DNA from: Hemileia vastatrix
Taxonomy: Eukaryota > Basidiomycota > Pucciniomycetes > Pucciniales > Zaghouaniaceae
Assembly (NCBI GenBank): GCA_030280995.1
Contig: JASXTE010000001.1
Coordinates: 28,614,606-28,678,605, forward strand
DNA: 64,000 bases
Reading direction: 5' to 3'
Part shown: piece after piece, positions 8,642 through 45,932 of the stretch
Layout of the letters: every line of letters begins with the position of its first letter
How positions within the stretch are numbered: the first letter of the stretch is position 1
Program-made: the position numbers and the translations under genes
Notes under the pieces: model-generated
Seen by the model: the letters and a program-made list of their open reading frames with translations, nothing else
The model's database searches: none
What the model was told of the DNA's origin: nothing

Positions 8642-8655
8642 CTCCCACCTAAAAA
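8642..8655 (-). other. Polypurine tract end of A2, exact fusion point with A1
   Basis: Minus strand reads TTTTTTTAGGTGGGAG and then, where the LTR should start with TG, switches directly into A1 integrase sequence. In C, D and the 1179 fragment the same context TTTTTAGAGTGAGG[GT]AG is followed by the LTR start TGTCA. The A2 3' LTR is therefore missing precisely from its first base or two. Confidence 0.7.
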
Positions 8656-8818
8656 AACAATAAAAAAATGATAAGTTATACATTTTCTTTATTTATTTGT
8701 AATTTTTCAGGTATTCAGATTAATTCTGTAGCATTAAATATTATTCTTTAAAGAAATTAAACATAACAAAATATTATTAGTACTGGTTTTTTAACCCCTC
8801 AGCTGGTTGAACAGAAAT

Positions 8819-12590: not shown

Positions 12591-14680
12591 CAATAACACT
12601 TACACATGTGACCCTTAACCCAAGGTTCATTAAATTTATAACAAGTGTTATTTTCTTGTCTTTTAGGGACAAGGGGAGCTGAAGGTTTTTTCTTCTCCAC
12701 TGGTAACTTACTTGTAGTAGGTCTTACTACATCAACACTTTGTTTGTAATTATTATACTTGGTTTCATATTTGTGGTTTAATAAGTATTTCATTGCATAT
12801 ATTAATGAAGCCAGAGGTATCTCTAATGGTTTCAGTTCTAGCTACAATAATGTCTCTAACTGATATAGGCAACTTGTATATTATTTTCTCTTTCCACTCA
12901 TTATAATCCATTTTTGGATCTATAGCTTTCATGATTTTTTTATAAATTCATTAAAAAGACCATGGGTTTATCTCCAGCATTTGGATTATATCTGGCTCTT
13001 TCATACAATCTTTGTTGAGTGATTCTGAATTTTGGGCCACCAAATTGCCTTTCAATTAGTGCCTTCCATTCATTCCAGGAGTAGTTATTTCTCTCACTCA
13101 ATACAGATTCAAACCATAATAAGGCCCCATCTTTGAATAAAAATATTAATTTTGATGTAATTTTTTCATCAGGTAATTTGTATGAAAGCTTCAAGTTATC
13201 AATTATTTGAATAAATTGTTGCCAATCAGATTTTGAATCACTGTCAAAAGAAGGGTACTGATCTAACTTAGGCCAGTTCTTTTGGCTAGTTTTTGCTTCC
13301 CTAACCTGAAGAATATTAAGTAATTCAGTTAATTTAGAAAGATGATCATTAATTTCATCTTTTACTAATTTTAAGTTCTTAGAGCCCATGAAACCATGTT
13401 CATGTTCAATCATTTGTTTAACATGTGAGTGTTTCATGAAAGCTGGTACTATTTCCATATAAGAAGTATTATCTTTTACTTTCTCAGTATTTTTCAAAAT
13501 GTTTGCTACTTCAATTTCTACTCTTTGTAACCTATACTTTATTACAGGTACATGAGTCAAGGTATCATTTACATTTGAAAAAGACAATTTTACATGTTCC
13601 TCTATGGTAGCCATAATATTCTGAGAGTGTTCTAATTTACTTTCTAAATTTCTTATCTCAGAGTTCAATCTTTTGTTTTCATTGGTTAATTCATTTTTTG
13701 AATTCTCAATAATTTTTAACCTATTGGCTGTTGTACTCAATGATTGTGTGGGTGTTAATAATACACTTTCTGCATTATTGTTTGACTCTTTAGAGAACTC
13801 TTCCAATTTTTCAATTCTTAATAATAATTTACTTATTATATTTGATTTCATTGGATCATCTTTTAAAAAATATTCAATTTTTTCCATGTCTAACTCAGAA
13901 GACTCATCATCAGGTTCAAGATTTAATTCATTTGGTTCCAATTTTATACTAGTAGCATTATCCTGGTGATCAATAAAACTATTTACATTGTCCTCACTTA
14001 AAGACAAGTTTAACATATTTTTATCAAATGAATAATTCTTTAGATCCTCATCAATTATATCTAACAATTCCTTATCAATCTCATTACCTATAAGTAATTC
14101 ATTGTTAGGATGATACAATTGATCATGAGAAGATGAATGACTTACCAAGGTCTTATCCCACTTCCCCTGCCTCCTCTTGCCTTTCCCTGTAAGTGTAACT
14201 GCTGGAGCCCTGCTGTTGAGGAGGGTTGTTGTAATTTTGGGCATACCAATCCCACTTCCATTTTCTGACTGTAATTTTTTGGTCCTCCTCTTGGACTGGA
14301 GGTGTTGCTATGGAATTTTTTGGTGCCACTGTTTGTGGTTGAGCCTTGATATCCACTAGAGCCTGGTTGATTTCTACAAAACCCTGTGCTGCCCTTTTCT
14401 CCAGATTGTTTATCTGGTCTACAATGTTGTTGAATCTTATGGTGAGGGTATTCAGTAGGGTAGAGAAGTAGTGAATTTGCTTTGTAATGTGTTTTTGGTT
14501 TTCTTTATTGATACTTGTTTTAAGAGTCTTTCCCTTTCCTCCAAGGACATTGTTGGGGTGCTTTTTATGATATGAGATTCCTGTCCCTCTATTTGAGTGT
14601 CCTGAAACAGGTTTTTTAGCTCAAGGTCATAAGTTATAAGGTTTTGCTTTATTACTTACAATTTCATTGTTGTCACACAT
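12591..14680 (-). pseudogene. gag: Gag polyprotein of Ty3 element A2 (degenerate)
   Basis: ATG at 14680 opens MCDNNEIVSNKAKPYNL and is followed after 17 residues by stops. The coiled coil (about 14500-14350, TLLNTLTIRFNNIVDQINNL), the Pro/Gln segment before KWDWYAQNYNN, and a 434-residue open stretch 14244-12940 hold most of Gag: acidic helical spacer, then WPKLDQYPSFDSDS, LLWFESVLSERN and RQFGGPKFRITQ of the capsid-like core. The zinc-knuckle-like segment CYKFNEPWVKGHMC lies near 12600. This copy keeps a longer reading frame than A1 and is the better guide to the family's Gag. Confidence 0.82.
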
Positions 14681-15356
14681 ATTGTACGTGGAATTTATTT
14701 TTTTTAAATTTAAATTTAGATATGAAACTTCAATGAAGGAGCTTTATCAGTATTTATCAATACCTGAAGACAATTATATTGCTTACTTATAGGTATGAAG
14801 TGAATTTCTAAGTTCCAAAAGTCAAATATGCTTTTATGTGTTCACTTGATTTAACTGGTCTACAATATGTAGCCATGTTTTTATATTTAAAAAAGAAAAT
14901 TTGTCAGTAAGATTCATTCTAAATATTAAACTAATTTTACAAACCAATAAAAGGGGATTAAGAGTCATGTTAAAAGAAAACAATTAATCAGTTTAATTGA
15001 TTATCATCTGCTAAGATCACAATTTTAATTGGTCTATTGAAAGACTCCCACTAAGAACAATTTTATGTTAAATTAGTGGTAAAAAATTTTATCTGCAAAG
15101 ATCACAAATTTAATTTGTCTATTGACAGACCCACTTATAACAATTATATGTTAAATTAGTGGTAAAATTGATGATTCAATATCACAATTTTATTATATAA
15201 CAGGGCTTCTTTTTCATAAGTCACTATATAAGTGACCCCAACCTGTTGTAATTATCATAATATTTTTATAGGGATTTTATTTACTTGTAGCCTCTTTTAT
15301 GAATTTTTTACTTACTGGAAGATAACCAACAGAATTCTTGAGGAAAGGTCACCAAT
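14681..15356 (-). other. Untranslated leader of element A2, with an internal tandem duplication
   Basis: AT-rich leader matching 2846-3436 of A1 in reverse. It contains a tandem duplication of about 80-88 bp (copies starting TGCTAAGATCACAATTTTAA near 15010 and TGCAAAGATCACAAATTTAA near 15097, each ending in ATGTTAAATTAGTGGTAAAA) where A1 has a single copy. No gene. Confidence 0.7.
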
Positions 15357-17955
15357 TGTCAGGCTGAGGTCAAGTACAGAGACGTGAACTAGCTTGAATG
15401 GTCAGTTTCTAGATGATTTTGATGGTCCTATATGAATACTGTAGTACAAATCCAATAAGTATTAAAATATAATTCAAAATAAAGGTCTCAGTAATATAAT
15501 TCTCACTAATTTTATATATGGCTTACAATCTTCTTAGTTGGTAGAAAAATAGATTTTATTTATTCAAATACTATTCAAAAGAGTCTATAGGTACTAATTA
15601 ATATGTATTGTAATTGGTTTGATTATATGGTTTAAATTTTAATGATAAAGAATGTAGAAAACAAGACCCAAAACCTCCTCCTTTGATACACATTGAGTTC
15701 CCCAATGAATCCCTTAATTTACCAGTCCAATACACAGTTAATGAAAATTACATCAAACTAATAGACATGTCAATCAACATTCCTAGTGATTCATAACATA
15801 ATTAGAAGAGTAACTACTGCCAAAATCCTGGATTAATAGGGGAAATCCATCAAAATTAAAGAATAAGTAAAAAAGAGAGTATATGCATATTATACATCAA
15901 TATAAAATACTAAAGAGGAAAAATTAAGCTTAATAAGAGCTTAATAATGAGGGGGATTCACTGTATAAATTATGGGGCTAATCCTGACATTATACTATGT
16001 GAAATTCACACTCAAAAATGACCAAAATTTACTGAGAAACCACCTAGAAACCCAAAAAAGGGAATGAGATGTGGGGTAACTACATGCAGTCCTTTTCAGG
16101 CGCTTTCACGGTGTGGTCTTTCAACATGGGCAGGGGCCTTTGTTGCGTGATTTGGCGCTGTTTGTGCATGTCTTAATTGACATCTGTTAAGGAATTGGGT
16201 ATTTTTCTGGTTTTTTTCTGTGGATATTGGTTCTGCGTGTATGTGGGTAATATCATTGGATAGCCCCAGTTTTTCTCTATATTTTATGTCTTGGAGACAT
16301 TTTTCATATTCTAAGTTTTAAGGGATGATTTCCTCATTTTTTTCATTTATAAAATATAGCTGTTTAATTTTGTTTTTTGTGTTTTACAGGCTAACCTTAG
16401 GTCTTAGAGTTAAGTGCTTAGTACCATTGGAAAGAGCTAATTTTTCTCTATATTTTATGTCTCTATGTTGTTATAGTGAAATTCTGTGTTTTAAAGGTTT
16501 TAGTAGTTGTAGCTAATTTTTTCAGGTAGATTAGTTGTTTTTATTGGTTTTCTGGCTTCAGGGAGGCCAGGCCGCTTCAGGCGGCACCTCCAACGTCGGG
16601 CGGCCCACCAGCCTCTGTTTTAGAAGGTTGGAGAGCGCTTCAGGAGGGTTTTTTATCCAATTTGGCGGGTACAGGCACCAGATTGGTGGGTGTGCATGGG
16701 CTCTTAGATAGTGGTCTGTGTGTACATAGTGAATAAGACAGTTTGGGGCAACCTTAATTATCATACAACCATTCGGAGGGGATATCCTTGTTCCTCACTC
16801 AGTTTTCACTGTTTTCTGGCCACAATTGGCTGTGTTTGTTGCAAGTGAGTTCTTCATTTAACTTAACTTTGGCAACTGTTTTCTCTGATATAGTCTTGCA
16901 AGCTGTAGCAAGTATTATTGCTGTCTCTGGTGTGGATTTGCAGCCTACATCAAGTATCTTTGCTGTCTCTGGTGTGGACATTGGTCTACATTTAAGTTCT
17001 TTGGTCTGGTAGTCTGTCTTGGGACTACTTTCTTGGCTCATAAAGAAGTCAAGTGTGTTGAAAAGGGGCTTTAGCAAAACAGGAACCAACTTACTTTAGC
17101 AAGTAAATCTCACTCTATTTTTCTAAAGGGACAGGGGATTTTCTCTCTGGTTTTTCTCAAACTCCCTTGATCAAGGCCTGTAGCTAGTACTATAGGATTG
17201 TCTACAACGGGTAAATCCTTGACTAATTTTTGTTAAATTTAAGCATGGTAGTGAAACAAGGCGCCAAGAGTGAGGTTATTAATGAAATTAGTGCATATAA
17301 AGAGGGTCAATGCATTATTAATTAAGCTAGGACACTAAATAAGCGCCTGTTGTCTATTTTAGTGTGTTTCCTCACAGTGGGCATAGAATGTGGGGTAATT
17401 ATAGTGTGAAAAAGCTAAATTTGCTAAAAATGAAGCTATTCAAACGGGAAAAATGCAAGCAGTATGTGGCCAGTACACCAAAGCCATTTCTGGCATAAAA
17501 AACCCCAAATTTAAAAAGTATTATTTTTATGCATTTTAGTAGACAAATCAATAGTCCTAAATGAGAAAAATTGAACTGTCAAAGCACATTTTTAATATTC
17601 TTAAATGTATAGTGCATATAATCAACTTTTAAGTGAAATAAAGCGCATTTCTTGTTTTTTGCATTAGACAATGAGAATAAAAGCTTTAAGAATACTTAAA
17701 AATTATGTAGCCTTATAATTAAGGTTCTTAAGATTACCCTAACATATTCCAACTTGATATTAAGTACATAAGAATTATAAAAGGTGGATATATGCGTGTA
17801 TATGAGGTGTTATAATGGCATTTTTTGTGTATTATCATAATTTTACTTATGTATACTGTTTGTGTACTTTCATTTATTTTTCCCATGTATAGTTCATGTG
17901 TTTAAGATAAATTATAAGTACTTTTTACTCAGTCCTGGAGTTATACAGGCTGACA
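15357..17955 (-). repeat. 5' LTR of Ty3 element A2, interrupted by a solo LTR
   Basis: On the minus strand the LTR starts at 17955 with TGTCAGCCTGTATAACTCC and ends at 15357. Removing the nested solo LTR plus one target-site copy leaves about 1500 bp, matching A1. Many sites differ from A1, including the lost TATA box, so A2 and A1 are not recent identical copies. Confidence 0.9.
16112..17206 (+). mobile_element. Solo LTR of giant element family B
   Basis: 1095 bp, TGTGGTCTTTCAAC ... GATTGTCTACA, flanked by the 4-bp target duplication ACGG (16108-16111 and 17207-17210). The empty site is visible in A1 as ATGGGTAAAT. It matches both LTRs of element B (31600-32693, 44835-45928) but is older: its GC-rich block has changes such as CCAACGTCGGG for CCGACGTCGGG. 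It presumably arose by recombination between two LTRs. Confidence 0.93.
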
Positions 17956-31189: not shown

Positions 31190-31599
31190 GTCACGTGCAG
31201 CAAACTGTTGTTGCGACTCTTTGCTGCACGTGACCAGCCCTCTCCGGCCACACCCTGGGTCAGATAGACCATAGTACTTTGATACTATGGTCCATCTGCC
31301 CAAGGGGGCATAGGAGAAGGTTGGTCACGTGCAGCGAAGAGTCTCAGCGACAGTTCGCTGCATGTGACAGAGCCTTCTCCCTGGCTATGGTCTATCTGAC
31401 CAAGCCAAGGTGAGGAAAAAAAAGGTCACGTACAGAAAAGTATTGCTGCAATAATTTGCTGCACGTGAAAAGTAATGGTTTAGGTGGCCAGGTCAAATGG
31501 ACCATATCATAAAACAGATATGGTTCATTTGACCCAGCCTTTGGTGGCTAGCTGCTGGTCACATGCAGCAAAGTGTCACAGCAATACTTTGCTGCACGT
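31190..31599. repeat. Foldback array of alternating long hairpins (left part, split by element B)
   Basis: Two hairpin types alternate. Type 1 has arms GTCACGTGCAGCAAA/TTTGCTGCACGTGAC: 31190-31234 (15-bp perfect arms), 31323-31368, about 31424-31467, and 31557-31599 continuing at 45933. Type 2 has arms GGTCA[AG]ATGGACCATA and complement: 31257-31301, a half copy near 31384-31400, 31491-31534, and 46097-46138 on the far side of B. All type-1 arms contain CACGTG or a one-base variant. Element B inserted in the last type-1 arm, at GCACGTGAC. No gene. Confidence 0.88.
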
Positions 31600-32693
31600 T
31601 GTGGTCTTCCAACATTGGCAGGGGACTTTGTTGTGTGATTTGGCGCGGTTTGTGCATGTCTTAATTGACATCTGTCAAAGAATTGGGTATTTTTCTGGTT
31701 TTATTCCGTGGATATTGGGTCTGCGGGTATGTGGGTACTATCATTGGATATCCCTGGTTTTTCTCTATATCATATGTCTTGTAGACATTTTTCATATTCT
31801 GAGTTTTAAGGGTTCATTTCCTCATTTTTCATTTATAAAAGATTGCTGTTTAATTTTGTTTTTCGTGTTTTACGGGCTAACCTTAAGTCTTAGGGTTAAG
31901 TGCTTAGTACCATTTGATAGAGCTAATTTTTCTCTTTATTTCATGTCTCAAAGTTGTTATAGTGAAATTCCGTGTTTTAAAGGTTTTAGTAGTTGTAGCT
32001 AATTTTTCTAAGTAGATTAGTGGTTTTTGTTGGTTTTCTGGCTTCAGGGAGGCCGGGCCGCTTCAGGCGGCATCTCCGACGTCGGGCGGCCCGCCCGCCT
32101 CTGTTTTAGGAGGTTGGGGAGCGCTTCAGGAGGGTTTTTTATGCAATTTGGCAGGTACAGGTGCCAGATTGGTGGGTGCGCAGGGGCTCTTAGTTGGTGG
32201 TCTGTGTGTATATAGTGAATAAGACAGTTTGGGGCAACCTTAATCATCATACAACCATCCGGAGGTGATATCATTGTTCCTCACTCAGTTTTCACTGTTT
32301 TCTGGCCACAATTGGCTGTGTTTGTTGCAAGTGAGTTCTTCATTTAACTTAACTTTGGCAACTGTTTTCTCTGTTATAGTCTTGCAAGCTATAGCAAGTA
32401 TTATTGCTGTCTCTGGTGTGGATTTGCAGCCTACATCAAGTATCTTTGCTGTCTCTGGTGTGGACTTTGTTCTACATTTCAGTTCTTTGGTCTGGTAGTC
32501 TATCTGGGGACTACTTTCTTGGCTCATCAAGCAGTCAAGTGTGTTTAAAAAGGAGCTTTAGCAAAACAGGAACCAACTTACTTTAGCAAGTAAATCTCAC
32601 TCTATTTTTCTAAAGGGACAGGGGATTTTCTCTCTGGTTTTTCTCCAACTCCCTTGGTCAAGGCCTATAGCTAGTACTATAGGATTGTCTACA
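31600..32693 (+). repeat. 5' LTR of element B
   Basis: TGTGGTCTTCCAACATTGG to GGATTGTCTACA, 1094 bp. It has a TATA box TATAAAAG at 31834, a GC-rich block at 32050-32099 containing CCGACGTCGGGCGGCCCGCC, and two copies of TTGCTGTCTCTGGTGTGGA (about 32403 and 32448). Open frames inside it on both strands recur in the other two B LTRs only because the DNA is the same. Confidence 0.95.
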
Positions 32694-32697
32694 TTTC

Positions 32698-32719
32698 TGG
32701 CGCCCAACGTGGGGTTCGA
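32698..32719 (+). promoter_or_regulatory. Primer-binding site of element B (tRNA-Lys-like)
   Basis: Four bases after the LTR comes TGGCGCCCAACGTGGGG followed by TTCGA. The first 17 bases equal the textbook tRNA-Lys(1,2)-type primer-binding site, and the extra bases fit pairing into the T-loop of the primer. The identity of the fungal tRNA is inference. Confidence 0.85.
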
Positions 32720-32784
32720 CTTGCTAGTTCTTTGGAATCTCTGTTTTCTTTGGTTGGCTCTTTTTGGTGTTTTGGACTGGAGGA

Positions 32785-35162
32785 ATGGCTTCTGGTTCCT
32801 CTATTCCTGTGGTGACTGTCAGTGGGGGGGATGGTCCTCCTTCTGTGATGGTTAGGGAGTGTGTGAGAATTAAAACTTGGGATGGTACCAAGTTTAATGG
32901 GGAGGATGTCAAGTGGTTTCTAGAGAAGTATGAAACTGCTGCTGGAGTGGATGGTGCTTCCTACCTGGACATGGTGAAGCAGATTATCTTCTTCATTGGG
33001 GATAGGTCAGTGGAGAAGGAGATTGTGGCCATGTCTGGCTACAAGAAGAGGGATTGGAAATTGTTGTGCAGGAAGATGGTGGATAGATGGGTGGTCAGGT
33101 TCACTATGGTGGATCTGAACAAGGTTTTCAGTGAATGGCAATCTTATGGTGGTGTTGGTAACTTACATAGTTACAGGAAGTTTCTGCTACAGTTTGATCC
33201 TGTGGTGGAATATTTGGTGGAAGTGGAGGAGCTGGCACATGAAAATGCTGCCAAAGATGTTTTTTGGTCTGCCCTGGCTAGAGATGTCAGGATGGATGTG
33301 TTGAAGGAGCTTTCAAGAAAGGAATTGATGAAGACTCTTTCTAATGGGGATCAGAAGTTGCCTGCCTTGGATAAGGTGAAGGAGGCTGTTGAGGCCCATT
33401 TGAAGTTATTGGCTGTGGACACCTATCAGGAGGGGTGTGCCAAGTATGTCAGAAAAGTCAGTGAGGCTTTGGCTGAAGAGGAAGTTATGGAGAAGAAGGA
33501 GGAGAAAAATTTGGTGCAGGTTCCCAAACAGGAAGGGGGCCAATGGTGGAACAGTTGGCTGATCTTACAAAGCAGCTGCACATTTTTGTTCAGGAGGCCA
33601 AGAAGGTTAATAAGGCACCTTCTCAGCCTAGAGATTTTGAAAGGAGGGCTGGTAGGAGTGATCCTTGGGTTTGCTCTTATTGCAGTAGGAGGGGGCACAG
33701 GTCCAATGATTGTTGGGCACTGAACAGAGATGGGTCTGAAGGAAAAGTGGAGTTTGATGGCAGGGTTTTTAAGTTCCCTGACGGTTCTTTTGTGAAGCTC
33801 AGTGAGGGGCAGGCTCCTGTGGATTCGGTCAGGAGAAGGGGTGGTCAAAATCAAAGGAGGCCAAGGTTTGAGGAGATTCCTGATCAGGGGAAGTCTTCTG
33901 TTAAGGTAGATGAGGACGTCAAGGGAAAGGGGAAGGAGGTCAATAAGGTCTCTTTTTCTACTTCCTTTGGTGGTTTGGAGTTGTATTCTTGTGGTGGACA
34001 GTCAAGTGGTGAATGCTTGGCTGGTGTTTATGATGTGGAAGCAGGAAAGGTGGGAAGGCCTAAGAGCAGTTCTCAGGCCCAACCAAAGCCAAATGCTTCA
34101 AAGTTGGATCCTAAGCTGAGTGCAGCTAGGAAGAGGTACAGCAAAGAGGAGCTGTACAAGATGCAGAAGGGTATGGCTGATATGGGCCCCCCTAGCTTTG
34201 GTGCATTGGATCTGAATGGTGATCCAATGCCAATGGAGGTGGATTCTGACTCTGAGGAGGATTTCCCTTTGGCTTCATTGCCAAAGCCTGTTGGAGTCAG
34301 AGGTTCTGGTGAGGGATCTGGTTTGGTTCCTGTTAATGGTAAATCTGTTGGTGGTGCTGGTCCTCAAGAAGCTTCTAGGACCAAGGTGGTGAAGCCAAGG
34401 GCTCACTTTGAGAGGCCAGTAGTGTCTGGTCAAGTTAATGTTATGGACTCTGTCCTTGAAAGGATGAATCAGGGTCAGGTTTCCCTATCTTATGGGGAAT
34501 TGTATGCTATCAGTCCAGGGTTGGCTGATAGGCAGAAAAAGTTGTTGAACAGGAGAAGAGTTTCTTCTGGTGAGGTAGAATACATTTGTGATTCTTCTGA
34601 AAAGTTTGGTGAGGGGTTGGAAACTCATTTTTCTGCTCCTCTGGGATATTTCAATGTCACTCTGAATGGCAGGGAGGCAAGGGCATTGGTGGATTCAGGT
34701 TCTCAGATAAACCTGATTTCTTTGTTTGAGGCAACTCATATGGGCCTCCCCATCAAAACTGGTATTGGTGGGAATTTGAGAGGGATCGGTGGTCATGTCA
34801 CTGAATTGGTTGGAACTTCAGAGTTTGTGAAGTTAGATGTTGGAGGAGCCTCAGGGAAGGTTCATTTTTAAATTGCTAAAGGTAATGTAAAAGCAGTTTT
34901 AGGTGGGCCATTCTTGATGGATTTTCAGGCAAGAATTGGTTATCAATTTGATTTGGGAATCAGTTTTGAGTTGACTGGTGAAGACAAAAGGAGGCTTCAC
35001 ATGAGGTTATCATCCCCTAGAGAGGATGGTTGGGAGACTAGGCCTGGTTTATCTTCAATGTGCCAGTGCATGGACTGCTGCAGGAGAAGGAAAGAAGTGG
35101 GTGCTGCCTCTGGTTTTTTGGAGTGCGGCTCAGGCTCTATTGAGAGTCTGTCTTTTATATAG
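32785..35162 (+). pseudogene. gag: ORF1 of element B: Gag with zinc knuckle and protease (one frameshift, one stop)
   Basis: I start at ATG 32785 (MASGSSIPVVTVSGG); upstream codons in frame include only a TTG. The Gag core contains IKTWDGTKFNGEDVKWFLEK and AVEAHLKLLAVDT. At a run of five G (33535-33539) the frame must step back by one base to continue, at 33543, into a long frame with the CCHC knuckle CSYCSRRGHRSNDCW (33680-33720), a Ser/Pro/Lys-rich linker and an aspartic protease LVDSGSQINLISLFEA (about 34690). A TAA at 34869-34871 interrupts the protease domain, but the same frame goes on with LGGPFLMDFQARIGY to TAG 35160. The shift could be programmed, but a homopolymer indel is as likely. 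ORF2 starts two bases after the end. Confidence 0.85.
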
Positions 35163-35659
35163 TAATGAGGGCTGATCACCCTAGTGCTACAACTTCTCCC
35201 CAAGATGAGGAAATCCCAGGTTGTAGTAGGTCAGCTCCCTTGGAGATATACCAAGTGGATTTTCAACTTTCTCTTTTTAATGTTTCTCTTCTCTGCAAGT
35301 ATTCATCAAGTTTTTTATCAAGTCTCTGTTCTCTCTCAAGATTCTTAATTATTTTTAATTCAAGTTTAAAGAAGAAGATTGGTTATATATCTTTATTGAA
35401 AGATATGGGAAAAAGTTTTGGGGCAGTGAGATTGGGGTCTAAAAGTAAGTTCTCCCAATTGTGCACCACTAGGGTTTCTTCTACACCTTTCAAAAACATT
35501 ACCTGCGCCACATCTGTGAGCATTGGGGAAACCCCTGGTTATTTTTGTAGGTCAGAAGAAAACTCAAGAAAAGAAGATAAAAATTTCAAGATAATTCATG
35601 AAAATCAAGAAAAAAATCTGAAGATAATGAGGAAAGAAGATGCAAAATATTTTTGTGAA

Positions 35660-35905
35660 GATTGTCAAGATCTATTTTTAGGCCTCCAGCATGAGGTTAA
35701 ACTGCAGAAAATTATGAAGAGTGACGATCGTCAAGATCTATTTTTGGGCCTCCAGCATGAGGTTAAACTGCAGAAAATTATGAAGAGTGAAGATTGTCAA
35801 GATCTATTTTTGGGCCTCCAGCATGAGGTTAAACTGCAGAAAATTATGAAGAGAGAAGATCATCAAGATCTATTTTTGGGCCTCCAGCATGAGGATAAAC
35901 TGCAC
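35660..35905 (+). repeat. 66-bp coding tandem repeat, 3.7 copies, between duplicated 140-bp blocks
   Basis: Units start at 35660, 35726, 35792 and 35858 and encode CQDLFLGLQHEVKLQKIMK with few changes. They are flanked by two similar blocks (about 35403-35550 and 35985-36140), each encoding KSFG[AV]VRLG[SC]KSK and RVSSTPFKNIT. Being a multiple of three, the repeat keeps the frame of ORF2. Confidence 0.95.
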
Positions 35906-36179
35906 AATTTTAGAAGATGTGATTCAGAAGATGAATCAAGATTTGAAGATTTGGAAGTTGGAAGTGAGGATGAAGATGTGGAATTGCGGAAAAGTTTTGG
36001 AGTGGTGAGATTGGGGTGTAAAAGTAAGTCCTCCCAATTGTGCACCGCTAGGGTTTCTTCTACACCTTTCAAAAACATTACCTTGGCCGCACATGTGAGC
36101 AATGGGGAAACCCTTGGTTTTTGTTCCAGGTCTGGTGGTGAAGAATCCCTGAAGATCCCTCAAGTTGAAGGTGGAGCGG

Positions 36180-37280
36180 TGTGGTAGCCTAAAGTTTAGT
36201 ATGGAACCTAAGTACGTAAATGGAGTTATTACGGCGTACAAGATTGGTGTTATTATTTTTTTATAAAAGGGTTTTATTTAATTTATTTGAGTTTTAAATA
36301 TGAAGAAATTGGTCAAGAGCAAATGCCTACGCGAAAACAATTTATTTTACGGAGAAAACTTATTTTTACGGTCTGAAAAAATTATAAGTATCAAGTCAAG
36401 TCACTCAAGAACCTTGGGAAATTTTTCCAGAATTTTTACTATTTTTCTTATATTTTTAAAAGAATTTTAAAGATTTATAGAAATATTTACGTTTTTAGAA
36501 ATTACTTAACTTTGATGAATTTTCACGGGGTAATTAGAGCTACGCAGACTACGAAAATTAGTTTGGAATGTAAAGGGGAAGTGGCTCTATCATGTGTAAT
36601 TTTTCTAGATTTTTTATTATAGTTTTAAAGGTTCTAATTGAGTCTGGAAGTCCGGACAGACTCCCTTTGGACTCCGTATGGGCTCCGGATTGACTCTGGG
36701 AGAGCTCTGGAGGGGAAAACTTAGGCACATGACTAGGAATACTTAAGCGCCTCTCAAACTCGAAATTTAGAGGGGGGATACAACATACAGCTTAGTCTTT
36801 AACCACCACGGTCTTATTTTTTATTACTCAACAAATTAAATAAATTTGTAATACCCTTATAACTTTATATTTTATATATAACATTTTAGAAATACTACTC
36901 AACAATTAAAATAACACTTCATACAGGGTATCTTTAGAAAGGTCTTCATCACTGGGACTTGATTATTGCTTTCTCATAAAAATTCAAATTATTATAAAAA
37001 CATAAAAGTCAATCTTTCCAGATCTTTCACTGGTACACCTTAATTGTTGTTATCAGTATTTCTTTATCAACAGCCACAATCATTTAATCTCAATAAGCGT
37101 TAAATATTTTAGAGTTTCATTATTTTTTATCAATCAGATCCAAGTAGTATGGCTAGCTTAGTGATTCAGAACACCTACTTTGTTATTTTTTGTTGGAAGG
37201 ACGGGGTTTTCAGCTAAATCCACACATCTCCTCCGGATTCTGCTTACAGCAAGGCGACTGTAAGAGTTTACCTTACCATA
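36180..37280 (+). mobile_element. Solo LTR (family K) inserted in ORF2 of element B
   Basis: 1101 bp, TGTGGTAGCC to CCTTACCATA (probably once TACCACA), flanked by GCGG at 36176-36179 and 37281-37284. Excision restores ORF2 in frame, which proves the boundaries. The body is AT-rich with a GC-richer patch rich in GGACTCC/CTCCGG words (36635-36720). No gene. Confidence 0.88.
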
Positions 37281-40200
37281 GCGGCAAAGTATAAGAAGGT
37301 AGCGCAGAAGATTAGGCCTGTCAATGAGCCTATTCCTGTGGGTTTGAATCCGCCTTTGAAGAGACCTCCTTTGTCAGGAGATCTGTACTGTACTCCTTTG
37401 GTGAAGAATCCTCCAGAATTTGTAGAGACGGCTAGGGTGACCGTGGAAAGATTGAAAGTTTTTAATTTTGGTCCTGATGGGTGGTTTTCTGAAGAAGAAA
37501 AGAAGTTTTTGTTGCACGTTATTGTGCTAAGGGAAAAAGCTGTGGCATTTGTTGAGCAGGAAAGGGGTGTATTGAAGCACTCTTATGGGGAACCTTACTT
37601 GATTCCTGTGGCTTGTCATGAACCTTGGCAAATCAAACCTATTCTGATTCCAGCCGCTATTAGAGAGTATTTTGTGGAGATTGTTAGGGAAAGAGTCAGG
37701 ACTGGGTTATATGAACAATCAACATCCAGTTACTCAATTCCGGTGTTCTGTGTAAAGAAGCAGAATGGAAAGTTGCGGGTGGTTCATGATCTTAGAGCCT
37801 TGAATAGAGTCACTATCAAGGACGCTGGTATGCCACCAAGTGCAGAGGATTTTGTTGAAGCTTTTGCTGGAAGGGTGTGTTATGGTTTGGGTGATATTAT
37901 GGATGGTTATGATGAGAGGGAACTTCATACGGATTCAAGGCCTCTCACAACTTTTGAGACTCCTTTGGGAAGATTTCAGCTTACTAGGTTGCCTCAAGGA
38001 GCAACTAATTCAGTGGCAGTTTATCAAGAACAGATGGCTTGGATTTTTCAGGATGAGGTTCCTACTCATGCTGGTATTTTTATTGATGATGGTGGAATTA
38101 AAGGACCATTCACTGATTATGGTAATGAGGTTTTAGCGGAGAACCCTGGCATAAGGAGGTTTGTGTGGGAATATGCAATAACTCTAGAGAGAGTGTTGTT
38201 CAGGATTGAAGAGGCTGGTTTGACCATTTCAGGGTCAAAATTCTGTTGTTGTGTTCCTGCTTTGGAAATTCTGGGTCATGTGGTATGTAAAGAGGGAAGG
38301 ATTATGGCGAAGAAGAAGATTAATAAAATCCAGTCATGGCCAAGGCCTAAAAATACTACTGAAGTCAGGGGATTTTTGGGTGTGTGTGTATATTTCAGGA
38401 TTTTTATTAAGGATTTTTCTTTGTTGGCTTCAACTTTAAGGAGTTTGACCAGAAAAGATGCAGATTGGGAATGGACTGAAGAGTGTGAAGAGGCTTTTCA
38501 GAAGTTGAAAAAGGTTGTTGGTGAAGATATTGTTCTTCACAAGTTGGATTATGGTGTTGGTGCTGGAAAAATTTATCTGGCAGTGGACTCAAGTTATATT
38601 GCTGCTGGTGCTGTTTTGTCTCAAGAGGATAAGACTGGGAGGGTCAGGCCAGTAAGATACGAGTCTGTGGTGTTTAATGAGGTGGAATCTAGGTATTCTC
38701 AACCTAAGTTGGAATTGTGTGGTGTAGCTAAAATTTTAAAGAAGCTGAAGACGGTTTTGTGGGGGCAGCATTTTGAGCTGCAGGTGGATGCAAAATCTTT
38801 GGTTCAGATGATCAATACGCCTAGTCTTCCAAATGCTCCAATGACTAGGTGGGTGGAATTTATTCAACATTTTTCTTTTGACCTGGTACACAAACCAGGT
38901 AAAACTTTTACTATGCCTGATGGATAATCAAGGAGACCACCTACAGATGAAGATTCTGAGGCTGAAGAGTTTGATGAGGATGTTCCAGTGGTTAGGGCCA
39001 GGACAAAGGGTGCTGAAGATTTTTCTGACCTCCCCCAAGAGGCTAAACTGGCTGGATCTGATCTTGATTCTGGTGATCAGGATGTTTTTGTTGAGAAAGA
39101 TGGAGTTGTTGTTTGGGACAGCTCAAAATTGGAAAAGGGTGTTTTTGTTCGTGAACTGGATTCTTACAAGGTTCAGTGGAAAGGGAAGGACGTGCCAAAA
39201 TTTAAAGATTGGTGTCCTAGTTGGGCTGCTCAAATGGCTCATGTTCACACTGGTGACTTTGATGACAGAGTTGTACCCTTGGTTGTTGTTTTGTTGGATT
39301 TTGAAGATGAGACCTGGGGTCAGTCTGGGTTTTATTTTATTTTGGTGGAATATCTGTTGACCTTAGAGAGGCCAGATAGTTGTGATGATGATACTTGGTT
39401 GGCAATCAAGAAAAAGAGTCCTGGATTTTATGTGTCAGGAAGGCGGTTGATAAGGAGGAGACATCCAAATCCTCAAGTGGTGGTGACTCAGAAGAAGGGT
39501 CAAGAATTGGTTTTGAAGTCTTTGCATGAAGACCTTGGTCATAGAGGCTTTGGGGAGACTTATAGAAGAGTAGAAGACAGATTTTGGTGGCCAGGTATGA
39601 AGTTGGCTGTGCAGGGTTGGGTTCAATCTTTTGAAGAATGTCAAAGAAGAAGTCACTTGAAACCTAAAGAGGTGGGCTGTGCTACTGGTGAATCAACTGT
39701 TTTTGTAAGGGTCAGTCTGAATGCTATCCATATTAAAAAGGGCAGGTATAAATAATTGATTGTTGCTAGGGATGATTTGTCTGGTTGGGTTGAGGCAGTG
39801 CCTCTGGTTAATTTGACTGCCAAGAATGTGGCAGATTTTTTGAAGACGGAGTGGATTTATAGGTATGGGTTGATGAAGTTGGTGACTGTTGATGGTGGGC
39901 CAGAGTTTGGTGCCAAATTTAAAGAAGCTGTGGCTAGTGTTGTTTCTATAGTTAGAGTGGCTACACCGTATTATCCTGAAGCTGAAGGCATGGTTGAAAG
40001 AGGCCATCAAGTTATCAAGAATGCTTTGGTGAAGATGTGTGGAGATAGTGCTGAAAAGTGGAGGCATTATTTACCTTTGGTGTTATTTGCTGATATGGTC
40101 ACTGTGAAGAGGACAACTGGCTATTCTCCTTATGAGTTAATGTTTGGTCAGAAAGCCGTTCTACCAGTGGACTTGGAAGCTGTCTCTTATCTTGGAATTG

Positions 40201-40680
40201 ATTGGGATGACGTGCACTCAACAGAAGATTTGCTCTGTGCCAGGATGCAACAGTTGGAATATAGAGAGGAATGTCAGGAGAAGGCATACTCTAGAATGAT
40301 GAAGATTAGGAATCAATCAGTCAGATACTGGGACAAGAAGTTGGCTCATAGACTCAGGAATCCCTTGAAACCTGGTTGTTTGGTTTTAGTTTATAATAGA
40401 ATTTTGGAGAGTCAGTGGGGGAAAATGTTTGCTGACAGATGGAATGGACCTTACAGAGTCAGATCTCAGGCGTCTGGAGGTTCTTATGTTTTGGAAGAGT
40501 TGGATGGTGCAGTCTTGAAAAAGAGGGTGGCTGAAGACCAAGTGAAGAGGTTTTATCCCAGAGGCACTAGGCATGAAGAAGATTGACTCCGCAATGAGGA
40601 TAAACTATGGAACGTTCTTTTTTGTATTGGAATTTTGTGGTGTTGCAGAGCAACTTTTGTGTTGGAAACTTTTGTTAGAA

Positions 40681-40766
40681 GGTACCCATGGGTGGGGCTT
40701 CTAGATTTGATCTTGGCAAGTGTAGGGGTGACTGATGGGCTGGCTGCTCTATCAACAGTTACCCCA
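40681..40766 (+). ncRNA. Hairpin family 1, copy 1
   Basis: Stem GGGGTGACTG (40725-40734) with CAGTTACCCC (40756-40765), loop ATGGGCTGGCTGCTCTATCAA. The 44 bases before the stem (GGTACCC...TCTAGATTT...TTGGCAAG) are shared with copy 2 and partly with copy 3. Candidate structured RNA in the 3' part of the element transcript. Confidence 0.55.
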
Positions 40767-40941
40767 GATTGTCTGTTTCCAACCCTTTTTCTTAACTTGG
40801 TTGAAACCTAGTATTGGTTTCTTTTCACATGTTTTAGTCCTCTATGACTTTAAACTGGAATTTCCTCTGGTTGTCAAGTGCTGGACTCTTCACTGTTTAT
40901 TGGTTTTAGTTTTTTGTGTTGGACGTTGTGTTTTCGTTAGA

Positions 40942-41025
40942 AGGTACCCAGGGGGGGATTCTAGATTTTATTTTGGCAAGTGTGGGGGTAACTGATGAGC
41001 TGGCTGCTCTGTGGAACAGTTACCC
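40942..41025 (+). ncRNA. Hairpin family 1, copy 2
   Basis: Stem GGGGTAACTG (40985-40994) with CAGTTACCC (41017-41025); loop starts ATGAGCTGGCTGCTCTGTGG. Compared with copy 1 the stem change GTG to GTA replaces a G-T pair by an A-T pair. Confidence 0.55.
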
Positions 41026-41385
41026 AAGAATGTCTGTTTCAAGTTTTTGTTTTTCCTAGTTGAATTCTAGTTCTGTTGTTTATTATTCAGGATTCAAGTC
41101 CACTATGACTTTAAACTGGTTTGGGACTGGCTTCTTTATCTTTGGTTCTTTCAGATTGGTGGTCTCCCATCATTTTTACTTATTGGAGGGAGCCCACCCA
41201 GTGATCATTTCTATGGATCAGACTTTCCCTTATTGGACCATCTATGGAGCTGGACTGTTTTTGATTTTGCAGTTATGTTTTTTGCTAGATAGAAGTTTTA
41301 GATTATTTTCTTTTTTTCTCTTTTTTTCTTTTAATTTTTTTATGGGGGTTCTTTAAAATTATATAATCAAAAATATAGGGTTTTA

Positions 41386-41455
41386 CCACATCAGGGTCAC
41401 CTGGATGTGGGCAAGCATTGGTGGGGAAAGGCTCATCAATTGGCCCGGCAATGCT
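41386..41455 (+). ncRNA. Hairpin family 2 (double hairpin), copy 1
   Basis: First stem CCACATC (41386-41392) with GATGTGG (41404-41410), extended by AGG/CCT; second stem AGCATTG (41414-41420) with CAATGCT (41449-41455) around a loop containing GGCTCATCAATTGG. Confidence 0.55.
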
Positions 41456-41579
41456 ATTTTATTTTTATTTATTATTTATTTCATGTGTTTCTGTGTTTCA
41501 TTATTTTTATTATCTTCTGAATTTCTAAATATTTTGATTTTTGATTTCTGTTAATCATTTAAAATATTTAATTGTGTAT

Positions 41580-41649
41580 CCACATCAAGGTGCACTTGGA
41601 TGTGGGTAAGGTATCAGGGGATCAGCTCATCAATTGTCTGGGGGATACC
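41580..41649 (+). ncRNA. Hairpin family 2 (double hairpin), copy 2
   Basis: First stem CCACATC/GATGTGG (41580-41586, 41599-41605) extended by AAG/CTT instead of AGG/CCT; second stem GGTATC (41610-41615) with GATACC (41644-41649). Loop keeps AGCTCATCAATTG. Stem sequences differ from copy 1 but pairing is kept. Confidence 0.55.
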
Positions 41650-42235
41650 ATTTGTATTATTTTTTATATTATATTTTATTTCATTTATGTTATTTCATTT
41701 TATTTTATTTATTAATTTTTTATTTTAGTATATTAGTACAAAAAAAAAAAAAAAATTCTGAAATTATTTTTATTAATTGTTTTATATTATTATTATTTTT
41801 CTAATCTTTTTTCAGGAGCTCATTGTCTGGATGATGAAGCTTCTGGAGGCTGGTCCGGATTGTGATGATGTTTTTGTTTTTTGTTGGGATTGTGGGAAGC
41901 ACTGTGTTCTTTGAAGTGCATCCTGCTGGAGAGATTATAGGGATTGTAATGGTCAGGAATTGGACTAGAGGGAAGTTCAGAGGAGGAAGAAGAAGAGGCA
42001 GGAATGGAGTGCTGGAGGGTGTGTTTAATGATTCTAGACATTTTCCAGTGGTCGTCCAGTAGGCGCTTTCTCAGGGATTTTTCAAATTCATTCAAAGGTC
42101 CATGGAGGGCAAAGGCTTTTAGCATGTTGGAACACATGGTGCTTAGGTGTTTCTTCATGTCTCCATAATCCAGGGTCAAAGAAGTTTCAAGAGTTTGGCC
42201 AACTCCAATAATAGATTCAGGAGGGGGGGTGCCAA

Positions 42236-42303
42236 CTAGACAAGAAGAATTGGATCAGTAATTATTTTTGTTGAAGAAATGGAATAATTAATTTGGTACT
42301 TAC
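42236..42303 (-). other. 68-nt intron of antisense gene 1
   Basis: Minus strand ATCT|GTAAGTACC ... TTCTTGTCTAG|TTGGCACC. Both consensus ends are present, and removal joins two frames that are both free of stops. It shows that this locus is built to be transcribed and spliced from the minus strand, against the direction of the retrotransposon. Confidence 0.8.
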
Positions 42304-42921
42304 AGATTGGAAGCTCATCAAATCTGTAAGCAGCTGGGATTTGGATCTCTGACAATTTTGTAATGGTCATAGTGGGTGGATCAACTAGGGAAAGATATGG
42401 ATTCTCATGGGCTTCCTCTGAAGGATCCTGAGAAGGTGAACTGGGATGCTGATGTTCCTGAGGCCTAGTTAGAGCAGTGAGATTGTTGTTGTTGTTGTGG
42501 TTGTTATTTCTGTTGGATTCAGCTGGAGGAGGTGCTGGTGATGGAGTACCAGGGTTGTTAAAGGATGGAGCAGGAGAGGGGGATTTGGAAGCAGACTGCT
42601 CTCTTCTGGATAAAGAATTTGAAGAGATGGAACTGTCAGAAGAGTAGTTGGCTGACAGAGGAGAGGTGTAGTTTCTTTGTCTTAGTTGGGGACAAAGTTG
42701 TTGTTGTGGAGCAGTGTGTGGTGTTCTGGGTTCTTCTTGGGGTTCTCTGGCAGGTCTCTTAGAAATCTGGTAAATTTTGGTGTTTTTGGACTTTGGAAGG
42801 GTGGATTGCATTGCTCTGGGAGCAGTAGGAGGTAGTTGGGTTGAGTTGTTGTTGTTGTCTGAATAAATTTGGCTGTTTTCTGGCCGTTTTTGGAGGTTTT
42901 GGCCCTGATTTTCACTGTTTG

Positions 42922-42966
42922 GTGAGGCGGGCAGGCCGCCCGACGTCGGCCGGGCCGCCTGGACGC
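42922..42966. other. GC-rich palindromic block shared with the B LTR in inverted orientation
   Basis: In an AT-rich window this 45-bp stretch is almost all G and C. Its reverse strand reads CCGACGTCGGGCGGCC then TGCCCGCC; the LTR has CCGACGTCGGGCGGCC then CGCCCGCC (32069-32092). It includes the 10-bp palindrome CCGACGTCGG. It lies inside the open frame of antisense gene 1. Confidence 0.8.
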
Positions 42967-43390
42967 GGTCTAGAAGCCTGGGAGTTGATCTTGAAGCTTT
43001 TGGAGCTAATTTGGCGGAGATAAAAGCAGTTTCTTGTGAGGCTAAGGCTGGTCTTTTTGGAAGAGTGTGGGAAGCTGAGCTTCTGGATCTTCTGGAAGGA
43101 GCAGAAGATAGAGAGGAAGAGGAAGGACCAAGCTCTGGGGATCAGGTGGGGGATCTGGAGATGTATTTGTGAGAAGGAGAAGGCGGAGGAATAGGGTAGT
43201 TGGCATCTCTGTCACATCTTTTCTTTTTGGAATAGCAAGAGTCACAAGCCCTGTTGTAGAATTTGGATTCAGTATTTGGAAGAGTGAATTTGCAAGGTCT
43301 GCACATGTGGATGCACTGTTTGCAGGCATAGTCCTTGGGAGCAGTGAAGCAAGGGAGAGTAGAAGGGTTAACATCAGGAGATCCAGCCAT

Positions 43391-44145
43391 GACCTGTGGT
43401 GAGATAAGATGATGAAATGGGATAGGAGGAGAATTTTGTCAGTGATGGGTAGATGATGAAGTGAAGGTGGAAGTTCAGCAGGTTGGCTGTAGAGGTGTGC
43501 TGCATGAAATTGGCTGCGTCCATTTTATGCAAAATTCCATCAGTTCATCAAGACTCTAAACTGAAAAAGTTATGGTGTCAAGATCAGTCCATCAAGACTC
43601 TAAACTGAAAAAGCTATGTTATCAAGTCATTCCATCAAGACTTTAAACTGAAATCTGGTTTCTATTAGTCCTCCAAGACTTTAAACTGGCTGTTTTTAAG
43701 ATTTTATCAAGATTAGTCCGTCAAGACTTTAAACTGAACACTGTGTTAGTCCCCCAAGACTTTAAACTGAGGGTTGTAAGTCCCCCAAGACTATAAACTG
43801 AGGGAAAAGTTTTTGTTGTTGGAGTTGGTTTTGAAAGATTGGTGGAGGGTATCCACAGGGGGAGCCTCCGAATTTAGCAAAGGCAAGTTTGGGGGTAATT
43901 GATGGGCTGGCTGCTCTATTCACAATTACCCCAGCATGTTAGTTTTTTCTCTGTGTCTTAATGTGGTTGATCTCTGGTTCTGGGTTTATGATTTAGGTTT
44001 TTGAGTCCCCCAAGACTTCAAACTGAGGGTTTTTGAGTCCCCCAAGACTATAAAATGAGGATGGTCCCCCAAGACTTAAAACTGAGGGTTGTTTGTGGTT
44101 ACATCCTATAGAGGGTGTGGTCAATTTTTCTTTTCTGAATCAAAC
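43391..44145. repeat. Array of about ten GTCCCCCAAGACTTTAAACTGAG repeats around a hairpin
   Basis: Copies of [CT]CAAGACT[TC]TAAACTGA begin near 43548, 43590, 43633, 43667, 43715, 43752, 43783, 44008, 44040 and 44068, about 30-48 bp apart. Those after 43740 carry the fuller form AGTCCCCCAAGACT and end AACTGAGGG. The hairpin copy at 43892-43932 splits the array. It fills the space upstream of antisense gene 1 (5' end 43390) and downstream of antisense gene 2 (3' end 44146). It is not CRISPR-like: spacing is irregular and copies diverge. Confidence 0.88.
43849..43932 (+). ncRNA. Hairpin family 1, copy 3
   Basis: Stem GGGGTAATTG (43892-43901) with CAATTACCCC (43923-43932), a perfect 10-bp stem; loop starts ATGGGCTGGCTGCTCTATTC. 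Relative to copies 1 and 2 a C-G pair has become T-A on both sides. Confidence 0.55.
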
Positions 44146-44786
44146 TCATGTACTAGTGGAATTACAGAGGGAATCAAGAGATGAAATGAAGTGTTCAGAA
44201 TTAGCCTTGAACTGGTGAATGAGGTGTCTTCTGTTCTCAATGTCCTGTGGATCTCTAGCAGGAGTGGATTGGAAGTAGTGAAGCAGAAGTTGTTTCTGTT
44301 GAAATGTGTGTTGTTGGAACTTGGCCTTGATAGTGGGTAAGTGCGTTGGTGTTGGTGGTGCAATGGATCCTACATTGTTATCATCACTATCAGAAGAGGG
44401 AGGAACTGAGAAGTTATCAGTTTTAAAGTTGAAGGAAGGAATGAATGTTCTTTACCATCAGATTGACCAGGGATGGGGGAACTAGTTGTTTTATGGGTTG
44501 TGGCACTCTTCTGGGAAGGGTGGAGCTTTTTGATTAATCTGGGTATCAGGATGGATGGCCTTGATCCTTTGGTGCTGGCAGAAGAAGGACCAGGTTGAGG
44601 TGGAGGTGAATCTGTTGTGAAAGAAAGTGGACCAGGTCTGTGGCAGGTCTTCTTTCTGGATTGGCAGACATCGCAGGACGTTCTGTATGGATGGACAGGT
44701 GGTGTCATGGTGCAGATTAAATTATTGTTGATGCAGTATTGGCAAGGACCCATTTCAGAGGCAGATTTGGGAAGAAGGTTAAACAT
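44146..44786 (-). CDS. Antisense zinc-cluster-like gene 2 of element B (intact, one intron)
   Basis: ATG at 44786 opens MFNLLPKSASEMGPCQYC; earlier in-frame codons lie in the LTR and are not needed. The cluster is CQYCINNNLIC, 12 residues, then CDVCQSRKKTC: C-x2-C-x6-C-x12-C-x2-C-x6-C, matching the Zn2Cys6 consensus. A Ser/Pro-rich linker follows (SFTTDSPPPQPGPSSAS). At GQSDG a GTAAAG donor and TTCTCAG acceptor bound a 50-nt intron (44455-44406). Splicing leads to PPSSDSDDNNVGSIAPP and a helical tail (IKAKFQQHTFQQKQLLLHYF, RRHLIHQFKANSEHFISSL), ending TGA at 44148-44146. Exons of 331 and 260 nt sum to 197 codons, 196 residues, with no internal stop. The start codon is 49 bp from the 3' LTR, so the promoter probably lies in the LTR, read backwards. 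Function unknown; a DNA-binding regulator is inference. Confidence 0.75.
44406..44455 (-). other. 50-nt intron of antisense gene 2
   Basis: Minus strand TGATG|GTAAAGAAC ... AACTTCTCAG|TTCCTCCC. Removal connects the two open frames exactly; unspliced translation would end shortly after. Confidence 0.75.
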
Positions 44787-44824
44787 GGTGTTCGGATGAA
44801 GAAAGAATGCAGAAATTATCAATT

Positions 44825-44834
44825 GGAGGGAGGA
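44825..44834 (+). promoter_or_regulatory. Polypurine tract of element B
   Basis: GGAGGGAGGA directly before the 3' LTR start TGTGG; expected primer site for plus-strand DNA synthesis. Confidence 0.85.
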
Positions 44835-45928
44835 TGTGGTTTTCCAACATTGGAAGGGGCCTTTGTTGTGTGATTTGGCGCGGTTTGTGCATGTCTTAAT
44901 TGACATCTGTCAAAGAATTGGGTATTTTTCTGGTTTTATTCCGTGGATATTGGGTCTGCGGGTATGTGGGTACTATCATTGGATAGCCCTGGTTTTTCTC
45001 TATATCTTATGTCTTGAAGAGATTTTTCATATTCTGAGTTTTAAGGGGTCATTTCCTCATTTTTCATTTATAAAAGATTGCTGTTTAATTTTGTTTTTTG
45101 TGTTTTACGGGGTAACCTTAAGTCTTAGGGTTAAGTGCTTAGTACCATTTGATAGAGCTAATTTTTCTCTATATTTCATGTCTCAAAGTTGTTATAGTGA
45201 AATTCTGTGTTTTAAAGGTTTTAGTAGTTGTAGCTAATTTTTCTAAGTAGATTAGTGGTTTTTGTTGGTTTTCTGGCTTCAGGGAGGCCGGGCCGCTTCA
45301 GGCGGCATCTCCGACATCGGGCGGCCCGCCCGCCTCTGTTTTAGGAGGTTGGGGAGCGCTTCAGGAGGGTTTTTTATGCAATTCGGCAGGTACAGGCACC
45401 AGATTGGTGGGTGCACATGGGCTCTTAGTTAGTGGTCTGTGTGTACATAGTGAATAAGACAGTTTGGGGCAACCTTAATCATCATACAACCATCCGGAGG
45501 TGATATCATTGTTCCTCACTCAGTTTTCACTGTTTTCTGGCCCTAATTGGCTGTGTTTGTTGCAAGTGAGTTCTTCATTTAACTTAACTTTGGCAACTGT
45601 TTTCTCTGTTATAGTCTTGCAAGCTATAGCAAGTATTATTGCTGTCTCTGGTGTGGATTTGCAGCCTACATCAAGTATCTTTGCTGTCTCTGGTGTGGAC
45701 TTTGTTCTACATTTCAGTTCTTTGGTCTGGTAGTCTATCTGGGGACTACTTTCTTGGCTCATCAAGCAGTCAAGTGCGTTTAAAAAGGAGCTTTAGCAAA
45801 ACAGGAACCAACTTACTTTAGCAAGTAAATCTCACTCTATTTTTCTAAAGGGACAGGGGATTTTCTCTCTGGTTTTTCTCCAACTCCCTTGGTCAAGGCC
45901 TATAGCTAGTACTATAGGATTGTCTACA
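44835..45928 (+). repeat. 3' LTR of element B
   Basis: 1094 bp, TGTGGTTTTCCAACATTGG to GATTGTCTACA, same length as the 5' LTR with few differences (for example CCGACATCGGG for CCGACGTCGGG). TATAAAAG at 45069. Followed by the target copy ACGT. Confidence 0.95.
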
Positions 45929-45932
45929 ACGT

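Follow-up and report, generated by a model that had tools for sequence, protein, structure and literature searches.

Several plant Ty3 long terminal repeat (LTR) retrotransposons carry additional genes in antisense orientation between pol and the 3' LTR (PMC7264820, PMC11963269), and the function of antisense genes in LTR retrotransposons has been described as unknown (PMC7264820). Here, a stretch of 64,000 nt from the rust fungus Hemileia vastatrix (assembly GCA_030280995.1, contig JASXTE010000001.1, positions 28,614,606 to 28,678,605 of the forward strand), referred to as the window and numbered from its first letter, was analysed. It contains a Ty3 element, here named element B, with two antisense genes, gene 1 and gene 2. 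As the earlier genes are described in the relevant passages of the two papers, element B shares with them the place, the orientation and the retention across copies, a long region between pol and the 3' LTR, which often holds repeats, and the proposal of a nuclear or DNA-binding role (PMC7264820, PMC11963269). The antisense genes of Retand are described there as mostly carrying TRP28, whereas element B, in a fungus, has two intron-bearing putative zinc-cluster genes. In the scanned pieces of gene 1 and gene 2, TRP28 (PF04195) gave no Pfam match up to E = 10, and neither paper uses the word "intron" in its main text.

Such genes are not confined to plants. Boty, a Ty3 element of the fungus Botrytis, is described as having an additional antisense gene, brtn (PMC7264820, PMC8365987, PMC4227169); the initial annotation had mentioned antisense accessory open reading frames in some plant Ty3 elements. 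Compared by description only, Boty has one named gene of this kind against two in element B, and a chromodomain is reported for its gag-pol (PMC4227169), whereas Pfam finds none in the pol frames of element B. Another parallel is VANC of the Arabidopsis VANDAL transposable elements (TEs), which is described as a TE-encoded protein with a short motif repeated in the noncoding DNA of the TE, in arrays of varying length (PMC5735166); element B likewise has a repeated motif in its own noncoding DNA, in an array of variable length. Binding and demethylation have been measured for VANC (PMC5735166), to which element B is likened by arrangement. Antisense accessory genes as such were already known, but a motif array set between two selected, putatively spliced zinc-cluster genes looks like a novel form of them. 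A literature search at the level of titles and abstracts that covered few subscription journals found no report of antisense genes of this zinc-cluster type in the Ty3 elements of rusts, and the words antisense, cargo and Ty3 are absent from a paper on rust TEs (PMC12210899).

Both genes lie on the minus strand between pol and the 3' LTR, inside the same LTR-bounded insertion; the frames and the LTR bounds agree in this with the initial annotation, and the genes recur in many copies of the element. Once its 68-nt intron, with the ends GTAAGT...CTAG, is taken out, gene 1 (43390 to 41820) has a joined frame of 1503 nt, and gene 2 (44786 to 44146) gives a spliced frame of 591 nt, encoding 196 amino acids (aa), after removal of a 50-nt intron (GTAAAG...CTGATAAC...CAG). 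Joining of the exons thus upheld the claim that introns with consensus ends connect stop-free frames, and gene 2 was intact and gene 1 interrupted by a single in-frame TGA (43142-43144, codon 83), as had been stated. The ATG of gene 2 is 48 nt away from the 3' LTR, and the 755-nt spacer between the gene 2 stop and the gene 1 ATG contains the motif array. A GC-rich palindrome, CCGACGTCGG, is present inside gene 1 at 42930-42959; it contains the site of a 19-nt deletion and, judged by eye, is similar to a GC-rich part of the LTR at 32048-32103.

Copies of the element were collected from the 747.6-Mb genome by a DNA search with gene 2 exon 1, in which 40 of 2626 candidates were scored (97-100% identical, the window copy included). 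The 39 non-window copies, thus selected by their likeness to gene 2, were taken with their flanks. Alignment across both genes was obtained for 37 of them, two of which (L016 and L030) end a few dozen bases short of the gene 1 end; the other two, L026 and L037, were left out of later counts. Splice ends are kept almost throughout: both GT and AG of intron 1 in 37/37 copies, and GT in 36/37 and AG in 37/37 for intron 2. Gene 2 is open to exactly residue 196 in 29 of the 37 copies, 27 of which also have the ATG and the GT/AG ends. The codon-83 stop of the window gene 1 recurs in one copy only (L045) and is not a family trait.

Selection was assessed by comparing variants shared by several copies with private variants, which occur in one copy and arose after its insertion, and sites that were CpG in any copy were removed. 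Frames that were important during the spread of the element should show mostly silent shared variants and neutral private ones. Expected counts were derived from the observed mutation types and the codons of the window, and the p-values treat variants as independent, which is only an approximation in view of recombination and recurrent mutation. For gene 1 (38 rows), 88 shared variants were synonymous against 54.7 expected (p = 7.2e-7, omega 0.48), with 72/52/108 changes at the three codon positions, and private variants were neutral (183/184/180, omega 0.98). For gene 2 (50 rows), 17 were synonymous against 11.0 expected (p = 0.034, omega 0.58), with 12/11/24 by codon position and an omega of 0.85 for private variants. 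No such excess among shared variants was found in frames shifted by 1 or 2, nor in the three frames of the spacer. With CpG sites included, the synonymous excess persisted (p = 2.1e-5 for gene 1 and 0.011 for gene 2), and the contrast between shared and private variants gave p = 0.0024 and 0.077, respectively. The check by dN/dS across other copies, which had been proposed together with the genes, came out in favour of conserved frames.

Pairwise comparisons and indels were examined as well. Between the gene 1 of copy L048 and that of the window, changes by codon position were 51/56/104, and singly changed codons comprised 73 replacements, 79 silent changes and 5 stops; for gene 2 of the window and L067, the ratio of nonsynonymous to synonymous changes (N:S) was 8:10. 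Indel events per 10 kb numbered 0.8 and 0 in the gene 2 exons and 10.8 in intron 2, about 11 in the gene 1 exons and 27.8 in intron 1, and 31-54 in the spacer; the low rate in gene 2 exon 1 is partly due to the way in which copies were selected. Shared stops in gene 1 (14 against 10.5 expected without CpG sites) show either recurrence of some shared variants or transmission of broken gene 1 copies. Since the surplus of synonymous changes among shared variants is confined to these very frames and is missing from private variants, from shifted frames and from the spacer, both frames were under purifying selection as proteins before insertion, during the spread of the element. It is near certain that gene 1 and gene 2 are protein-coding.

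Because the first set had been chosen by gene 2 likeness, 12 further copies (L055-L066) were chosen by an open gene 1 exon 1: the gene 1 search scored 150 of 9201 candidates, 20 of which had an open frame of at least 390 aa, and the first 12 were used. The ends GTAAAG/TCAG of the gene 2 intron were intact in all 12, which had one exon indel, and gene 2 was open to residue 196 in seven; one of these seven has no ATG and two are missing one or two of the six cysteines described below. A third sample disregarded the antisense region and took four stretches at a fixed distance from reverse transcriptases (RTs) with a 1413-aa open frame. Gene 2, the gene 1 start and 7 to 9 array units were seen in three of the four; in the fourth, L068, that place is taken up by another LTR and the start of an RT, and its own 3' region is out of view. 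Of the three, L070 has the strict six-cysteine motif in both genes, L069 has it in gene 1 alone and the remaining one has it in neither, so the copies placed by pol are not all intact. Copies L047, L069 and L070 have in common a second type of gene 1, which starts with MSGSPAV. Compared with the window, L048 is 82-92% identical in gene 1 (200 nt by 200 nt) and 96-98% in gene 2, and for this reason it looks like a mosaic from recombination between subfamilies.

The two proteins start with a similar pattern of six cysteines, C23-x2-C-x6-C-x15-C-x2-C-x6-C in gene 1 and C15-x2-C-x6-C-x12-C-x2-C-x6-C in gene 2. In a six-frame scan of the window this motif was found in these two genes only, and 200 order-1 Markov windows contained no instance of it. 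With zinc regions that are 35% identical over 57 columns (BLASTP E = 5e-5 in a single comparison, a value that leans on the common cysteines), the genes look like a sister pair. Fungal Gal4-type Zn2Cys6 factors (PF00172) also have an N-terminal CX2CX6C...CX2CX6C with basic residues in one half. Their spacing rule is CX2CX6CX5-12CX2CX6-8C, which the loop of 12 in gene 2 fits, and the loop of 15 in gene 1 is slightly long. Genes 1 and 2 differ from these factors in that they score below the Pfam cutoff, have their matching halves in swapped order, show no further Pfam domain and are encoded by a retrotransposon. When Zn_clus was scanned by halves, the best halves alone reached 18.6 and 17.4 bits (curated cutoff 21), the second half of gene 1 matching profile positions 1-16 and the first half of gene 2 positions 16-35; the remaining two halves gave no Zn_clus match when scanned singly. 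As a control, the halves of Gal4 matched positions 1-18 and 16-37 above the cutoff. The profile requires the basic half first and the other half second, an order that neither gene shows, and the two weak half matches, one per gene, suggest a six-cysteine cluster with halves reversed relative to Gal4. In the Pfam scan of four gene 1 and gene 2 pieces, the weak Zn_clus match was the sole one, and the scanned rest of the proteins had no match. A search of the protein database that depends on common 5-residue words yielded, at E <= 1, no homologue of gene 2 and none of residues 325-450 of the gene 1 copy L011. A poor AlphaFold2 model of gene 2 exon 1 alone has two short helix-strand units at both CxxC motifs (predicted local distance difference test, pLDDT, 55). 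The initial annotation had assigned both genes to the Zn2Cys6 pattern of fungal transcription factors; the cysteine spacing fits apart from the slightly long loop of gene 1, and the label of an ordinary Zn2Cys6 factor is not earned, because the half matches are weak, below the cutoff and swapped in order.

Beyond what the initial annotation had reported, the spacer upstream of gene 1 contains an array of a roughly 23-nt motif. All 12 motif units of the window are in sense orientation and 10 of them are upstream of gene 1, and 20 Markov windows of equal size had a mean of 1.45 matches. The edges of the unit are sharp (positions -7 to +15 of the 16-mer), and its linkers are unlike one another. 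Each of the 38 aligned rows has 7-16 units, with one reverse match, in L040, and mean diversity across these rows is lower in unit cores (0.010) than in linkers (0.031), a difference that is partly explained by the absence of CpG from the motif core. The array is read as a candidate DNA target of the proteins, the rival reading being a signal in the sense RNA.

In the mechanism considered most likely, the minus-strand transcript of gene 2 would most likely start in or at the 3' LTR, with a promoter that is probably the LTR read backwards since the ATG is so close to it, and that of gene 1 would start within the spacer. After splicing, the transcripts would be translated into two related proteins, each with a six-cysteine zinc cluster at its N-terminus. 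The proteins would enter the nucleus and bind the element's own array; binding may raise element expression or relieve silencing by methylation, and would act in trans on all copies. Every step from transcription and splicing to the binding of zinc and DNA is inferred here, as are the role of the array as target and the direction in which the proteins act. In the antisense region of the 37 copies (L011-L049) and the window, C-to-T changes affect 14.8% of C at CpG against 1.6% of other C, about nine times as many, which points to cytosine methylation of element B copies. In Puccinia graminis, young TEs are described as methylated and associated with small RNAs (PMC8444563), and VANC offers a measured precedent, as described, for a TE-coded protein that acts on the TE's noncoding DNA by way of a motif repeated there (PMC5735166, PMC10398659). 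On these grounds, regulation or anti-silencing through the array is favoured as the role of the genes, with a probability of roughly 0.45. Given the array and the CpG decay of the copies, regulation is more plausible than could be known to the initial annotation, which had suggested self-regulation or silencing control.

Several observations weigh against this reading. The proteins are tied to the motif by position alone. All six cysteines are kept in 29/37 copies for gene 2 and in 26/37 for gene 1. Gene 1 is open to its end in only three of 37 copies (L011, L031 and L033, the last with a stop one codon early), and a 19-nt deletion between GGCGGCC repeats is carried by 20 of the 38 rows (37 copies and the window), scattered across a star-like tree; nearly all sampled copies are therefore without gene 1 in cis. 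The selection signal of gene 2 is modest, and the pairs L031-L048 (N:S 12:3) and L069-L070 (11:1) oppose it. The profile search and structure prediction that had been suggested for both proteins gave a partial answer: Zn_clus was matched at 15.7 bits by gene 1 and 14.7 by gene 2, below 21, and the models, with pLDDT of 52-55, were poor, that of gene 1 from two sequences being helical (pLDDT 52). PDB had no sequence match, and the model of gene 2 exon 1 had no fold match.

The proteins could instead act outside transcription, as nucleic-acid chaperones, in RNA export or in the choice of integration sites, with the array serving as a signal in the sense RNA. This idea draws on the uniform sense direction of the window units, and cysteine clusters are able to bind RNA as well as DNA. 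A protein is described as required for nuclear export of the RNA of Cer1 in Caenorhabditis elegans (PMC10309623). However, the array strand folds no better than shuffles (z 0.17), most units lie upstream of an antisense gene, and the basic CDxCxSxKK half of gene 1 resembles DNA-binding clusters (a weak profile match, in gene 1 only), so that such a role is considered unlikely, though it deserves to be taken seriously. An explanation in which the antisense RNA itself matters, by pairing with the sense RNA and feeding small-RNA silencing with the proteins incidental, has been proposed as a possibility for the plant antisense frames (PMC7264820), and the CpG decay suggests that copies are targeted by methylation; it is rather improbable because selection acts on the amino-acid frames and the synonymous excess is frame-specific.

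The introns and the zinc-cluster start are gene-like, and retroelements are described as able to transduce genes (PMC7264820), which would be compatible with captured host transcription-factor genes travelling as passengers. Alignment of 37/39 copies across both genes, selection on the frames during the spread and the empty homologue search described above make this quite improbable. Long antisense frames can arise opposite biased sequence, but chance frames with chance introns are already contradicted by the rarity of the motif, the frame-specific selection and the indel pattern, and hardly come into consideration.

Regulation or anti-silencing through the array thus stays the favoured role. 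In its most specific form, two sister zinc-cluster proteins with halves reversed relative to Gal4, made from spliced antisense RNAs of a rust retrotransposon, would recognise the 23-nt array and lift silencing from, or drive transcription of, many copies, a proposal that is tentative. If true, this circuit would give the VANC systems a counterpart in a fungal LTR retrotransposon; VANDALs, unlike element B, are not LTR retrotransposons. The cysteine-cluster start, the measurable frame selection and the adjoining candidate target array make the function of antisense LTR-element genes testable, and the findings may bear on how element B became so common in this genome (2626 and 9201 first-look candidates for the two pieces, 40 and 150 scored).

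The features of element B are collected in Table 1. The element is a single insertion (31600-45928) flanked by ACGT on each outer side, its LTRs agree over 1094 nt, starting with TGTGG and ending with CTACA, and the LTRs, target-site copies, protease, RT-RNase H and integrase after the RT place it among Ty3/Metaviridae LTR retrotransposons.

Table 1 Features of element B, in window coordinates
Feature	Position	Strand	Remarks
5' LTR	31600..32693	+	97.9% identical to 44835-45928; ACGT at 31596-31599
gag-like open frame	32728..33723	+	named by position; no Pfam family above cutoff
Aspartyl protease frame	33477..34871	+	Pfam Asp_protease_2, E = 2.4e-6
Reverse transcriptase and RNase H	37218..38927	+	Pfam RVT_1, RT_RNaseH
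Integrase, two frames split by a stop	38928..40586	+	first: Integrase_H2C2; second: named by position, without Pfam match
Outlying motif unit	40827..40861	+	
Outlying motif unit	41088..41122	+	
Gene 1 exon 2 including stop	41820..42235	-	
Gene 1 intron, 68 nt	42236..42303	-	GT and AG kept in 37/37 copies
Gene 1 exon 1, remainder past TGA	42304..43141	-	19-nt deletion site at 42955 in 20/38 rows
Gene 1 exon 1, putative zinc-cluster end before TGA	43145..43390	-	
Array of ten same-orientation motifs of about 23 nt, AGTCC-N-Y-CAAGACTTTAAACTG-R	43533..44088	+	between gene 2 stop and gene 1 ATG
Gene 2 exon 2 including stop	44146..44405	-	
Gene 2 intron, 50 nt	44406..44455	-	GT in 36/37, AG in 37/37 copies
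Gene 2 exon 1, putative zinc cluster	44456..44786	-	
3' LTR	44835..45928	+	matches 5' LTR; ACGT at 45929-45932

A protein search with the RT gave 228 matches among 7993 scored candidates. The top-scoring relative is an unnamed environmental protein (74% identity), and among the 120 relatives listed, besides environmental proteins without a name, the named ones include proteins of the rust fungi Austropuccinia psidii (up to 64% among the best listed), Puccinia striiformis and P. coronata. An AT-rich and stop-rich stretch with 66-nt and 148-nt repeats (35150-37200) separates the protease from the RT in the window copy; in other copies the RT lies within open frames of up to 1413 aa, and the stretch may be an insertion in the window copy. 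After pol, two similar stretches at 41387-41411 and 41580-41605 have inverted arms by eye (CCACATC...GGATGTGG). Elsewhere in the window, 1351-17953 is occupied by a different Ty3 element in two copies of opposite orientation, which are about 92% alike over their longest stretch; a solo LTR of the element B family (16112-17209) lies within one of them, and a chromodomain frame is found in the same region at 8819-9823.

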